A stretch of DNA of 64,000 bases. It comes from Yoonia sp. I 8.24. GTDB lineage: Bacteria; Pseudomonadota; Alphaproteobacteria; Rhodobacterales; Rhodobacteraceae. The stretch spans positions 310,001-374,000 of the forward strand of contig NZ_JACXGQ010000001.1 in the NCBI RefSeq assembly GCF_022096995.1, written 5' to 3'. A program made the translations under genes and the position numbers. Positions 22,309 through 27,049 of this stretch are shown here, in pieces. A model generated the notes under the pieces. That model saw only the letters and a list, made by a program, of their open reading frames with translations. It did not search any database and was not told the origin of the DNA. Within the stretch, counting starts at the first letter, position 1. Every line of letters begins with the position of its first letter.

Positions 22309-22561
22309 GTTGTGTCGTCTTGTGGCATTGTACTACGCTAACCATCCTAAGGTTGCTAAGCCTGTACAGTAGACTTCGAGCACGGTTCACAGAAAGTCGA
22401 AATCGTATCGGCACCCTATGCCGCGCCCGTTCGCTGAATACAGAGTTTACGCAATATCATCCCATAGATGCCGTTCGCGACACACTGCCCCTTGAGCCTT
22501 GGTCCCCTGCCCCTTATGACGCAGGGGAATATAGCTGCTCACCCCAAGAAAGGTGCCACCC

Positions 22562-23869
22562 ATGATTCCACGCTATTCCCGCCCAGAAATGACCGCCATC
22601 TGGGACCCTGCCACAAAATTCAAAATCTGGTACGAGATCGAGGCCTATGCCTGCGACGCCCAAGCTGCGATCGGCGTGATCCCTGCCGAAAGCGCTGCCG
22701 CCGTTTGGAAAGCCAAGGACGTGGAATTTGATGTGGCCCGCATCGACGAAATCGAAGCCGTCACCAAGCACGACGTGATCGCGTTCCTGACGCATCTGGC
22801 CGAACATATCGGATCGACCGAAGCGCGCTTTGTGCACCAAGGCATGACATCTTCTGATGTTCTTGACACGACATTCAACGTGCAGCTTGTACGCGCCGCC
22901 GATCTGCTTTTGTCTGGCATGGATCGCGTTCTTACTGCGTTGAAAACCCGCGCCATTGAGCACAAAGAAACCGTCCGCATTGGCCGCAGCCACGGTATCC
23001 ATGCAGAACCAACCACAATGGGGCTAACCTTTGCACGTTTCTACGCGGAAATGGACCGGGGCCGCGCGCGTCTGGTTGCCGCACGCGCGGAAATCGCAAC
23101 GGGTGCTATTTCGGGCGCGGTCGGCACATTCGCCAATATTGACCCATCCGTCGAAGAACATGTGTGTGAAAAACTGGGCCTCTCCCCAGAGCCGATCAGC
23201 ACACAAGTCATCCCGCGTGACCGCCACGCCATGTTCTTTGCCACGCTGGGCGTAATCGCATCATCCATTGAAAACATCGCAACCGAAGTGCGCCACATGC
23301 AACGCACCGAAGTCCTTGAAGCCGAAGAGTTTTTCTCAAAGGGCCAAAAGGGATCTTCCGCGATGCCACACAAACGCAACCCTGTTCTTACCGAAAACCT
23401 GACAGGGCTTGCCCGTTTGGTGCGCATGTCAGTTGTCCCAGCTATGGAAAACGTGGCCCTATGGCATGAACGCGACATCAGCCATTCGTCCGTGGAACGC
23501 GCAATTGGCCCCGACACAACGGTCACATTGGATTTCGCCCTGCACCGTTTAGCAGGCGTCATCGAAAAGCTGGTGATCTACCCAGACAACATGTTGGCCA
23601 ACATGAACAAATTCCGTGGGCTCGTAATGTCACAGCGCGTCCTTCTTGCACTGACCCAAGCAGGTGTCAGCCGCGAAGATGCCTATAAGCTAGTGCAACG
23701 CAACGCGATGAAAGTCTGGGAGCAAGGCAAAGACTTCCAAACCGAGCTGTTAGGCGACGCAGATGTGCTTGCTGCGCTATCTGCCGATGAAATCAAAGAA
23801 AAATTCGACCTCGGCTATCACACCAAACACGTCGAAACGATCTTTAAGCGGGTCTTTGGCGACAGCTAA
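22562..23869 (+). CDS. purB: Adenylosuccinate lyase
   Basis: 435-residue lyase that acts twice in purine synthesis (SAICAR to AICAR, adenylosuccinate to AMP). The superfamily signature GSSAMPHKRNP is present, with GMTSSDVLDT and GRSHGIHAEPTTMG active-site segments. ATG 22562 follows AAAGGTG; a start nine bases earlier would not be ATG. It is convergent with luxI and shares a terminator with it. Confidence 0.97.
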   Translation: MIPRYSRPEMTAIWDPATKFKIWYEIEAYACDAQAAIGVIPAESAAAVWKAKDVEFDVARIDEIEAVTKHDVIAFLTHLAEHIGSTEARFVHQGMTSSDVLDTTFNVQLVRAADLLLSGMDRVLTALKTRAIEHKETVRIGRSHGIHAEPTTMGLTFARFYAEMDRGRARLVAARAEIATGAISGAVGTFANIDPSVEEHVCEKLGLSPEPISTQVIPRDRHAMFFATLGVIASSIENIATEVRHMQRTEVLEAEEFFSKGQKGSSAMPHKRNPVLTENLTGLARLVRMSVVPAMENVALWHERDISHSSVERAIGPDTTVTLDFALHRLAGVIEKLVIYPDNMLANMNKFRGLVMSQRVLLALTQAGVSREDAYKLVQRNAMKVWEQGKDFQTELLGDADVLAALSADEIKEKFDLGYHTKHVETIFKRVFGDS

Positions 23870-23917: not shown

Positions 23918-24589
23918 CTAACTCACAGATGGCGCATGAACCGCGGCGACCGGCGCACCGCTTGTCGCCTTGGCTGGGCGCGCAACAACGGCTGCTTTTT
24001 GACGACGCGGTTTGGCTGGCATGCTCATCGCGACATAGCGGCGTTCATCGTGGCAATTCACATACGAGTCACCAATAAGCTCCACATCATAACCAAGTTG
24101 ACGTAACGTTCTGGAAAATACCGGCGGGCACAGTGCGATAATCTCGGTCCCACCGTGCGCTTTTGTCTGTTTGACGACTCCATCCAGCACCAACCCCAAG
24201 CATTCTGCCCGCTCGGCTTGCGTTGTGACCTCATCGGAAATAACCACGCGCGTCGCTTCCCATACATCGGGTGTCACAGTTGAGATGTCGATAATATCTT
24301 CTGGAATACCAATCAATTTGCCCGCAACTGCATCGCCCAACATATAGGTATGTGAACCCCATTGAGCCGTCGTCGACATCGCTCGCATCCCGCCGATGAC
24401 TTTACCGTCACGCAAAACCAGTGAATAATGTGCATTTGGGTTGTCATATTGATCCATCTCAACAGTGTCATCGTGTGGAATCTGCCAGCCAAGCTGGTCT
24501 ACGAAGAATTGCTTGCGCAGCGCAAGAAATTCATAAAATGCTGTGCCGTACTGGTGAAGCTGCGCGAAACTGAACGAAATATTTTCCAT
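23918..24589 (-). CDS. luxI: Acyl-homoserine-lactone synthase (LuxI family)
   Basis: 223 residues. Makes an N-acyl homoserine lactone from S-adenosylmethionine and acyl-ACP. All canonical LuxI residues are at the expected spacing: R25, F29, W35 (LRKQFFVDQLGW), D46 and D49 (EMDQYD), R69 (GGMRAM), E111 and R114 (WEATRVVI). After about residue 190 comes a basic then alanine/proline-rich tail of some 30 residues that most LuxI proteins lack. It lies 126 bases after luxR on the same strand. The acyl chain made cannot be deduced; roseobacters often make long chains. Confidence 0.93.
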   Translation of the reverse strand: MENISFSFAQLHQYGTAFYEFLALRKQFFVDQLGWQIPHDDTVEMDQYDNPNAHYSLVLRDGKVIGGMRAMSTTAQWGSHTYMLGDAVAGKLIGIPEDIIDISTVTPDVWEATRVVISDEVTTQAERAECLGLVLDGVVKQTKAHGGTEIIALCPPVFSRTLRQLGYDVELIGDSYVNCHDERRYVAMSMPAKPRRQKAAVVARPAKATSGAPVAAVHAPSVS

Positions 24590-24715
24590 GGTGTTTTCTC
24601 TCTACCGATAAGCGATCTAGTCGCCAAATTACATCTGCTAATTGTCACGAAGGCCGTGCCTATTTCAAATTAGCGTCAAATTTTATATAAGTAAGAAAAA
24701 AACGACAGGTAGTAC

Positions 24716-25324
24716 TCAGATAAGCCCGTACTGGTTCGCAAGTGCCGCTGCTTGCGTGCCTGTTTTGGCACCCAATTTCAGCTTTGCATTTTTAAGACGC
24801 TGCTTCACGGCGCCCTCGCTCACACTCAACTCAAAGGCGATTTCCTTGAGCCGCTTGCCGTCCTTGACCATGCCCAATGCTTCAAGTTCTGCACGAGTCA
24901 AATTCGTTGGTGGGGCGGTCTCATTGTGCCGGCGGGCAAGCAGCGCCTTGAGCAATTTCGCCTCGAGATCGCTATACTCACGGTCCCCACGGGTAAAAGA
25001 AGCGAACGAACGTTGGGCATCTATGTTCCCATCAAAGACGGATACGGTGACTCCGAAACGCATTCCAAATGTCTTAGCCTGCGCAATAATACGCTTGGGG
25101 TCATCGAGCGGCAAATCGCTCCAGCGGCATATCCCGGTATTGCCGAATGCCCACCTAACAGCCGGATCAAAAAGCATAAACCTTTGGGTTGTGTAGTGAT
25201 GCACCCACTCGGCAGGAAATGCATTCACCTCCTCCATCGGAAAGGCAAAGCCAATCCGAAGTGCGATATAATACCCAGACGGAGCAAGCTGCTCTATTTC
25301 GTCTGGCCCCATCAACGTCGACAT
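24716..25324 (-). CDS. luxR: LuxR-type quorum-sensing regulator
   Basis: 202-residue AHL-responsive transcription factor. The N-terminal autoinducer-binding domain keeps the pocket residues W40, Y44, D53-P54 and W68 (AEWVHHYTTQRFMLFDPAVRW...CRWSDL in two pieces). The C-terminal LuxR helix-turn-helix (about 140-200) is complete: LTRAELEALGMV, KEIAFELSVSEGAVKQRLKNA, KLGAKTGTQAAALA. GGGGAA precedes ATG 25324. It is upstream of luxI on the same strand, so the pair may form one unit. It is shorter than typical LuxR (about 240), the N-terminal domain being compact as in several roseobacter proteins. It is divergent from a LuxR-like gene without the DNA-binding part. Confidence 0.93.
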   Translation of the reverse strand: MSTLMGPDEIEQLAPSGYYIALRIGFAFPMEEVNAFPAEWVHHYTTQRFMLFDPAVRWAFGNTGICRWSDLPLDDPKRIIAQAKTFGMRFGVTVSVFDGNIDAQRSFASFTRGDREYSDLEAKLLKALLARRHNETAPPTNLTRAELEALGMVKDGKRLKEIAFELSVSEGAVKQRLKNAKLKLGAKTGTQAAALANQYGLI

Positions 25325-25463
25325 TCTTATTCCCCGAGCCTCAAACTATTTTTTTAAGGTCTTGTTGCTGCACCACTGTTATCTGTAGAATGCTAAAATG
25401 CGGTACTTCGTATAGTAGTATTGCGATATTGTAGCCCTTGGCAACTGGAAAGCGAGTTAAATC
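25325..25463. promoter_or_regulatory. Divergent intergenic region between luxR and the short LuxR-like gene
   Basis: 139 AT-rich bases hold the promoters of two divergent genes. I found no perfect lux-box dyad; the nearest is the imperfect CGGTACTTCGTATAGTAGTA near 25400-25430. The control of both genes by LuxR is plausible but not shown. Confidence 0.4.
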
Positions 25464-25952
25464 ATGTCGCAAACACAATATGAAATTAGCGAAGTTCTGG
25501 AAGAACTTGGTGAACTCGCGCCTGCTGGTTATGCACTCGGTTTTCATATCGCCTACACAACACCCAAATTTATGTTCCAAACATATCCAAAAGCATGGTT
25601 GGACTACTATTCGCAAAACGGTCTGGTCATGTCGGATCCAATGGTTGCATGGGGATTCGAAAATACTGGAAGCTGTCGCTGGTCAGAACTTGATGACCCT
25701 TCTGGTGTTCTAAAGAAAGCCTCAGAACATGGCATGCCATATGGCCTCGTTTGTGCTGTAAAATTTGATGATAGCATCAGTATTTGTGGCTGCGCACGCG
25801 CAGACCGGGAATTTTCCGACGCCGAAATCGAAATTATTCAAAGTAAAGTCAACTATTTACACAAATCGACAGCAGACCAAGCACATCTAACGCCAGAGAC
25901 CATTCAGGACCTAAAAAACATGTCGATTTCGTTCACACACCCGGGATCGTAA
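25464..25952 (+). CDS. LuxR-like autoinducer-binding protein lacking the DNA-binding domain
   Basis: 162 residues homologous to the N-terminal domain of the neighbouring LuxR: compare YPKAWLDYYSQNG and SDPMVAWGFENTGSCRWSEL here with PAEWVHHYTTQRF and FDPAVRWAFGNTGICRWSDL there. The pocket residues W45, Y49, D58-P59 and W73 are kept with identical spacing. The protein ends at LTPETIQDLKNMSISFTHPGS, exactly where the first helix of the LuxR HTH begins in the paralogue, and only 47 bases remain before the next gene, so no HTH remnant is hidden by a frameshift. It may bind AHL or heterodimerise with LuxR, as the TraR antagonist TrlR does (inference). Sequence is AT-richer than flanking genes. Confidence 0.85.
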   Translation: MSQTQYEISEVLEELGELAPAGYALGFHIAYTTPKFMFQTYPKAWLDYYSQNGLVMSDPMVAWGFENTGSCRWSELDDPSGVLKKASEHGMPYGLVCAVKFDDSISICGCARADREFSDAEIEIIQSKVNYLHKSTADQAHLTPETIQDLKNMSISFTHPGS

Positions 25953-25999
25953 GCTGGGTTTCTAACCTTTCATTTACCCCCACTCCATAGAGTGTGGGA

Positions 26000-27049
26000 A
26001 TGAGTATGCATTTTGATACCCCTGCCGCTTCGGCACTAACCCGCCGACGTAAGGCCGCAATGATCGTTCAAATGATGATCAGCGACGGGGGCAACCTGTC
26101 GTTGTCTCAGCTACCCGAATCACTTCAAGAAGTTTTAACGAACGAGTTGGGCGCCATAAAACTGGTTGATCGTGATACGGTCGCGGATGTCGCGGCTGAA
26201 TTCACCGCACAGCTCGACGCCATCGGTCTGTCGGCCCCGGGTTCGCGCGACGGGGCCATTGCAGCCCTGTCTGATCACCTCAGCCCCTCTTTGGCGGAAC
26301 GGTTGCGCGCTCAGATGGAAAGCGTACGCAACGGTGATCATTGGCCCACGGTCGCCGAACTTTCGATTGAACGGCTGGTGGATATCATGACCCGCGAAAG
26401 CATCGAAATTTGCGCCATCGCCCTATCAAAACTACAGGTTGGCAAAGCAGCAGAGGTCTTAACGCAAACGCCGGGTGAACGGGCAAGGCGGATCACTTAC
26501 GCAATGTCGCTGACATCTGAAATCTCGCCGGATGCCGTCCGCCGTATTGGCGCATCACTGGCCCAAGACTATGGGCAACCTGCAAAACCTGCGTTTGAAA
26601 AACCCCCCGTGCAACGATTGGGCGCGATCTTGAATTCGACCATCACGGACACGCGCGAAGATGTGCTGACCTCACTGGGCGAAACGGACCCTGATTTCGC
26701 AAGCGATGTCCGCAAAGCGATCTTTACATTTAAAGACATCGCGCCGCGCGTCAAACCCACCGATATCCCCAGCTGCATTCGTTCTGTCGATGCCGAAGTC
26801 TTGACGCGCGCCATTGCTGCCGGCCTTGCCGGGGATGCGCCGATCGTGGCCTCGGCCGAATTTATTCTTGGCAGCGTGTCACAACGTATGGCCGGACAAA
26901 TGCGCGAAGACGCCGAAGAGATGGGGCGCATCAAAAAAGCAGATGCAGAGGCAGCGATGTCAGCCATCACCACGGCGATCCGCGAAATGGCGGAAAGCGG
27001 CGTTATTACCTTGATTGACCCGGACGAGGATGACGACGAGGATGAATAG
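26000..27049 (+). CDS. FliG-like flagellar motor switch protein
   Basis: 349 residues from ATG 26000 (an earlier GTG at 25994 and an ATG at 26006 are also in frame). The C-terminal part shows the FliG rotor domain: EDVLTSLGETDPDFASDVRKAIFTFKDI, DAEVLTRAIAAGLAG and the end helix MREDAEEMGRIKKADAEAA. The N-terminal and middle domains are recognisable by their helical repeats (RRRKAAMIVQMMISDGG). The very acidic tail (DPDEDDDEDE) is unusual. FliG couples MotA to the C-ring and sets rotation direction. No other flagellar gene is in the window, so this copy is isolated beside the quorum-sensing locus; it may be the only FliG or a second one. Confidence 0.75.
   Translation: MSMHFDTPAASALTRRRKAAMIVQMMISDGGNLSLSQLPESLQEVLTNELGAIKLVDRDTVADVAAEFTAQLDAIGLSAPGSRDGAIAALSDHLSPSLAERLRAQMESVRNGDHWPTVAELSIERLVDIMTRESIEICAIALSKLQVGKAAEVLTQTPGERARRITYAMSLTSEISPDAVRRIGASLAQDYGQPAKPAFEKPPVQRLGAILNSTITDTREDVLTSLGETDPDFASDVRKAIFTFKDIAPRVKPTDIPSCIRSVDAEVLTRAIAAGLAGDAPIVASAEFILGSVSQRMAGQMREDAEEMGRIKKADAEAAMSAITTAIREMAESGVITLIDPDEDDDEDE

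Follow-up and report, generated by a model that had tools for sequence, protein, structure and literature searches.

A LuxR-type protein without a DNA-binding domain beside luxR and luxI in Yoonia: a candidate split autoinducer receptor of the CerM/CerN type

Genes of the locus, their distribution and their constraint

The window analyzed here, a stretch of 64,000 nucleotides from Yoonia sp. I 8.24 (Rhodobacteraceae), carries a three-gene quorum-sensing locus. As outlined in Table 1, luxI, encoding an acyl-homoserine lactone (AHL) synthase, and luxR lie together on the minus strand, and a divergent gene, termed the short gene in the following, encodes a LuxR-type protein with the autoinducer-binding domain alone, lacking the helix-turn-helix (HTH). 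This arrangement had been proposed from the letters alone (the sequence-only reading), and both the three-gene locus and its individual parts were confirmed by the coordinates and the Pfam assignments. The two-domain luxR adjoins luxI as in a canonical LuxR/LuxI arrangement, and the LuxR carries F36 where a canonical partner has the tyrosine of the YPxxW pocket motif. The short protein shares 34% identity with this LuxR over 144 aligned columns; the whole genome holds four genes with an Autoind_bind domain, these two and two more.

Table 1 Features of the locus (positions within the window).
Feature	Coordinates	Strand	Product or motif	Basis and remarks
purB	22553..23869	+	adenylosuccinate lyase	conserved neighbour on the luxI side
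luxI	23918..24589	-	AHL synthase, 223 residues	PF00765 (Autoind_synth), E 8.8e-16
luxR, CerM type	24716..25324	-	202 residues	PF03472 (Autoind_bind) and PF00196 (GerE HTH); F36 replaces the pocket tyrosine
Control region luxR/short gene	25325..25463		139 bp	sequence; aligned across 33 genus loci
Inferred short-gene promoter	25362..25391	+	TTGTTG (25362-25367), 18-base spacer, TAGAAT (25386-25391)	conserved in the genus alignment
Inferred luxR promoter	25417..25444	-	TTGCCA (25444-25439), 16-base spacer, AATACT (25422-25417)	facing the short-gene promoter
Conserved block	25440..25457	+	GGCAACTGGAAAGCGAGT	just upstream of the short-gene start
Short gene (HTH-less), CerN type	25464..25952	+	162 residues	PF03472 alone, E 4.4e-15
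fliG	25994..27049	+		same strand as the short gene; sole FliG_C match of the genome

In order of their scores against an HTH profile built from four sequences, the collected proteins fell into 89 without HTH (at most 6.2 bits) and 123 with HTH (at least 53.9 bits); because the scores split cleanly with nothing in between, the absence of the HTH is not a matter of chance, and the proposed precise loss of the output domain with retention of the sensor was borne out. The 89 include near-copies, e.g. L083/L114/L115, L123/L124 and L128/L129, and possibly some genomes twice. Omitted from the count were L003, L004, L116, L117, L125 and L148, which are places or genomes already represented by a different locus (L148, for instance, stems from a second R. 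capsulatus), as well as L025-L053, mostly re-collected with wider flanks (exceptions: L042, L045, L046, L048, L052 and L053). The HTH-less genes of L045 and L053 thus stand outside the 89, as do L170 and L171, which were added later.

The AlphaFold2 model of the short protein, computed from 34 aligned sequences, showed the autoinducer-domain fold with a mean pLDDT (predicted local distance difference test) of 90.4, and the best Foldseek matches in the PDB were chains of RhlR, QscR, SdiA, CviR, TraR and others alike. Residues of about 144-158 align with the first HTH helix and are modelled as an additional C-terminal helix of lower confidence. The earlier statement that the protein stops right at the first helix of the missing HTH had to be corrected in this point: the helix is kept, and the protein ends in a tail of its own with 'TH' among its nine final residues, a trait of 34 of the 35 genus members, counting the window, and of 14 of 54 others. 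Furthermore, the length of 162 residues and the C-terminus were conserved in 20 aligned genus members.

The distribution was examined in 60 genomes, namely the window's own, 35 of the same genus and 24 from other families. An HTH-less homologue was found in 34 of the 35 congeneric genomes, the sole miss being a genome of 84% completeness, and none of the 24 genomes from other families matched at E 1e-5. A profile search with loci checked singly over 248 genomes of the family, one per genus, yielded an HTH-less homologue in at least 43, a lower bound that covers the matches listed. A class-wide draw of 289 genomes gave two with a match at E 1e-15, namely that of the window and a congener; 20 non-matching genomes are listed (2 of the family and 18 outside it), and the other 267 are of unstated kinship. 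The named genomes with close CerN-type relatives belong to the Rhodobacterales. With regard to synteny, the HTH-less gene was divergent from a LuxR gene in 86 of the 89 loci, 85 of them recognized by script and L081 by hand, since its scripted start call lay too far upstream. Consequently the short gene is no oddity of one strain.

In L072 and L075 the HTH-less gene stands in line after luxR-luxI. The HTH-less gene of L074 (4968-5471) is the only one of the 89 with no LuxR within 2 kb; judging by their sequence, its neighbours resemble ilvH and ilvB. In four LuxR/short pairs, L069, L077, L123 (Thioclava) and L124, no luxI was found nearby by BLAST; the pair of L069 (4234-5462) is a second one in genome G065, which also has the full locus L099. 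In L056 (3995-4927) luxR and the short gene are separated by an open reading frame (ORF), presumably transposase-like, and each of the two genes still has an open frame. Of 15 genus loci with wide flanks, 14 lie between purB and fliG, the last one being located at the end of its contig; outside the genus, purB and fliG flank 12 of 40 HTH-less loci. Seen from the side of the partner, the 248 family genomes held 49 CerM-type LuxRs (at least 214 bits; next match 208), 44 of which had an HTH-less gene in the same locus. Those standing alone are L169, L172, L173, L174 and L175, with L172, L173 and L174 in genomes that carry a pair elsewhere.

For the six sequence pairs with a synonymous rate (dS) below 1, the ratio of nonsynonymous to synonymous rates (dN/dS) was 0.03-0.14 for the short gene and 0.01-0.07 for luxR. 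The short gene is under purifying selection, although less constrained than luxR; the proposed selection for it was supported, and dN/dS was not elevated. A recent truncation or a strain-specific decay was ruled out by the 34 of 35 genus genomes, the HTH split and the low dN/dS. In line with this, the idea of a decaying gene or an annotation artefact, for which we found no supporting evidence, is hardly credible with such ratios, the presence in nearly all of the genus genomes, the conserved length and, in the aligned genus members, the conserved C-terminus.

Kinship and AHL pocket of the two proteins

Trees of the shared domain were calculated from 107 of 212 proteins, chosen by us, together with 5 or 3 outgroup rows; in the first of them the very long outgroup row L002_CR fell on the LuxR side, and the tree was rebuilt without L002_CR and L001_CR. 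Thereby 56 HTH-bearing proteins formed one clade (support 99/94) and 51 HTH-less proteins lay outside it. In the first tree the window LuxR and CerM stand within one CerM-type clade of 51, from which the GtaR-like proteins are excluded (87/99), and the CerN types (10 rows) group together (98/97); these lie, like the window short protein, outside the HTH-bearing clade of the rebuilt tree. A quick tree of 217 rows split the HTH-less proteins into 82 and 7.

The evolutionary distances of short protein and LuxR correlated over 88 loci with r 0.83, a value reached in none of 1000 permutations. After removal of the distances of purB, fliG and luxI the partial r was 0.29 (27 loci), 0.31 (47 loci) and 0.64 (47 loci), respectively. 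Given the drop with purB and fliG, much of the correlation reflects shared descent, and co-evolution of the two proteins was rejected as a conclusion from it.

The short protein possesses W45, Y49, D58, P59 and W73, and all five residues were invariant in the 89 HTH-less proteins, window included. The pocket is therefore not degenerate, and the part of the sequence-only reading that named these residues holds; it needs correction in that the two pockets are not identical, as Y41 of the short protein aligns with F36 of the window LuxR. The residue in question is the tyrosine of the TYPxxW motif, which RhlR and SdiA share in the alignment and which we take to correspond to LasR Y56, TraR Y53 and RhlR Y64, a hydrogen-bond partner of the AHL. 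Among the HTH-less proteins it was Y in 86 and F in 3 (n=89). Of the CerM-type LuxR partners (n=88) just 2 had Y at this position, the others having L (53), F (30) or M (3). The GtaR-like LuxRs, 35 rows defined by their loci (a full-length LuxR with no HTH-less gene beside it), had Y throughout (35/35). In the same loop the 88 partners carried E at window position 31 in 65, E32 in 86 and N34 in 85 cases.

On the simplest reading of this pattern, AHL reception would have been partly lost in the DNA-binding partner and kept in the HTH-less protein. Because the tyrosine is kept in the short proteins and lost in their partners, the pair is better read as a putative split receptor than as a sensor with a decoy. 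This division of the pocket tyrosine is what the present analysis adds to the known record, as it is mentioned neither in the sequence-only reading nor in the passages cited below.

Control region and neighbouring fliG

For the control region, the comparison drew on 33 of the 35 loci of the genus and 51 further ones (gap 31-259 bases); all counts were set against shuffled sequences, which understate chance because the loci are related and the counts not independent. The short-gene promoter-like pair was present in 27 of the 33 genus loci (shuffled mean 5.2, maximum 14) and the luxR pair in 22 (shuffled mean 3.9, maximum 11). Beyond the genus both were barely above the shuffles, with 8 of 51 for luxR (shuffled maximum 7) and 5 of 51 for the short gene (shuffled maximum 10). 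In a scan of 1551 bases of the window the luxR pair was one of four consensus matches, which means nothing alone, as the shuffled mean was 2.1; the short-gene pair was not among the four. The two promoter-like pairs (25362-25444), conserved in the genus and weak outside it, face each other with overlapping footprints. As the polymerase footprints would overlap, short gene and luxR may exclude each other at initiation.

The conserved block is almost invariant in the genus and mostly lies 21-24 bases upstream of the short-gene start; of the 33 loci compared, 29 have its pattern GCAAC-N2-4-AAG (shuffled mean 0.04). The left part of the block coincides with the inferred luxR -35 element; the remainder reads AAAGCGAGT. 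As an operator of a regulon the block was rejected: the genome held one exact match and one with three mismatches, as against 12 matches of the reversed control pattern, so that no regulon was seen, and part of the block fits the luxR -35 element. A search for RNA families in the gap gave a single match, which at 20.3 bits stayed below the gathering score of 55.

On the other side of the short gene, the fliG ORF starts 41 bases past its end on the same strand (47-49 bases in many genus loci). With so short a distance fliG may lie on the short-gene transcript, and a common transcript of a quorum-sensing part and a flagellar switch gene is possible.

Comparison with known systems and competing explanations

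The short gene is not new as a kind: CerN dates from a 2024 publication, and a catalogue of 2013 already contains the locus. According to PMC11655674 (correction listed as PMC11788584), CerN of Cereibacter sphaeroides has no HTH and was pulled down with CerM only when AHL was present; CerM binds DNA without AHL, and CerN plus AHL removes it from DNA in an electrophoretic mobility shift assay and in an E. coli reporter. Swimming was lost in the cerN mutant and regained on removing cerM too. The locus of Cereibacter johrii (L114), found in a scan of named genomes, has the order cerI-cerR-cerM|cerN with cerM and cerN divergent and shows the published marks, namely 31% identity between CerM and CerN and F at the place of CerM W57. 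The window shares with this system an HTH-less protein whose neighbouring LuxR belongs to the CerM clade, the whole pocket, the side of the tree and the divergent genes. It differs in that the CerN/CerM pair precedes cerR-cerI with another LuxI type, whereas the window luxI directly follows luxR and fliG follows the short gene. A further difference is the W57F change of CerM proposed by the authors of PMC11655674, which we found in only 3 of 88 partners (L083, L114 and L115) and which was rejected as a general cause of CerM-like behaviour. The loss of the tyrosine in the partner lineage is in line with DNA binding of CerM without AHL and is broader than W57F. Within the titles and abstract openings searched, which left subscription journals mostly uncovered, PMC11655674 describes the only HTH-less LuxR homologue in this bacterial order.

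The locus itself corresponds to 'topology D' of the roseobacters (Cude and Buchan 2013, PMC3824088), given there as fliG - luxR - luxI - adenylosuccinate lyase. The window has fliG and adenylosuccinate lyase around luxRI and two luxR loci, as Table A1 of that paper lists for each of six topology D genomes; its passages at hand state that no topology D organism had been studied for quorum sensing, are silent on one luxR lacking the HTH and do not contain the word 'truncated'. The pair GtaR/GtaI of Rhodobacter capsulatus (the GtaR name of L147/L148 resting on organism and gene order) shares with the window a full-length LuxR of the same larger group together with luxI, but GtaR-like proteins keep the pocket tyrosine, and no HTH-less partner occurs in the loci seen.

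Taken together, we consider it rather probable that the window encodes, along with an AHL synthase, a pair of the CerM/CerN type in which the short protein would be the main AHL sensor and the LuxR the output released by its AHL-loaded partner. At low cell density the LuxR would occupy its DNA sites without AHL, as reported for CerM. At high density the LuxI product would load the short protein, which would then pair with the LuxR and release it from DNA, as reported for CerM/CerN. The sensing and output functions, which a LuxR usually combines in its two domains, would thus be divided between two old back-to-back paralogues, and the lost tyrosine may be the reason why the window pair behaves like CerM/CerN. 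More tentatively, we propose that this division is old and extends to more than 40 genera in a single family, with the HTH-less protein as the real AHL receptor and a LuxR that would be AHL-poor and released by its partner; in the genus the possibly overlapping face-to-face promoters would make the pair a transcriptional switch too.

Several observations weigh against this picture. The window LuxR retains W40, Y44, D53, P54 and W68, so that it may still bind AHL, and the change from Tyr to F is a mild one. Five of the 49 CerM-type LuxRs have no HTH-less neighbour (genomes G144, G083 and G166, and G110 twice) and all of them lack the pocket tyrosine as well, hence its loss needs no partner. In the tested system, PMC11655674 reports that AHL alone also weakened the binding of CerM to DNA somewhat. 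The window proteins are only moderately related to those of C. johrii (short protein/CerN 36% identity, LuxR/CerM 43%), and the two LuxI are of different types (31%). When all pairs with dS below 2 are considered, the median dN/dS is 0.21 for the short gene (59 of 595 pairs) and 0.07 for luxR (56 of 595 pairs). Finally, the CerR outgroup joined inside the HTH-less side of the tree, and all HTH-less proteins fell on one side of a branch in 0% of 200 bootstrap trees; a single HTH-less clade was neither rejected (p-AU 0.238 in the approximately unbiased test) nor recovered, and one single loss of the HTH is not proven.

The sequence-only reading had suggested a ligand sink or a dominant-negative partner as TrlR is for TraR. 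In the latter case the short protein would form inactive heterodimers with an AHL-dependent LuxR and delay or cap its response. The missing HTH, the whole pocket and the five canonical residues retained in the LuxR fit such a role, and TrlR, itself of the LuxR type but devoid of a DNA-binding domain and inhibitory to a LuxR, is a precedent named in PMC11655674 and in a 2026 review of LuxR partner proteins, whose available part names TrlR and not CerN (PMC13043044). As cited in PMC11655674, however, TrlR of the Agrobacterium octopine Ti plasmids is a near-copy of TraR (88%), which needs AHL for DNA binding, whereas the short protein is no truncated copy but an old paralogue with 34% identity, and the lineage of its LuxR has lost the pocket tyrosine and falls into the clade of CerM, a protein that binds DNA in the absence of AHL. 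We thus regard this explanation as unlikely, and a 'decoy of a normal AHL receptor' probably has the matter the wrong way round. What remains of the suggestion is that the short protein probably acts against a LuxR, a role for which CerN/CerM is the experimental precedent.

The AHL-loaded short protein could also act as a positive co-receptor that pairs with the LuxR and alters its DNA specificity or stability with no switch-off. A possible stabilization of CerM by AHL and CerN is raised in PMC11655674, and the correlated distances of the two proteins point in the same direction; much of this correlation is shared descent, however, and the effect described there for the tested CerM/CerN pair is antagonism, which renders a co-receptor improbable. 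A pure AHL sink, which would bind AHL and lower the free signal with the LuxR untouched, is conceivable with an invariant pocket and is not the best fit: the short gene tracks the LuxR gene more than luxI, as pairs with no luxI nearby exist and L074 is the only locus of the 89 that lacks a LuxR within 2 kb, and CerN binds CerM directly according to PMC11655674. We therefore consider a sink very improbable.

The present results connect the single CerN case of 2024 with a gene present in at least 43 of the 248 genera sampled from the family, and they make the 'second luxR' of topology D a part that can be tested. If the division of the pocket holds true, reporters and mutants that rely solely on the LuxR would fail to reveal the real receptor of these systems. 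With the sole fliG of the genome adjoining the short gene, the locus may furthermore offer a short link from cell density to swimming.
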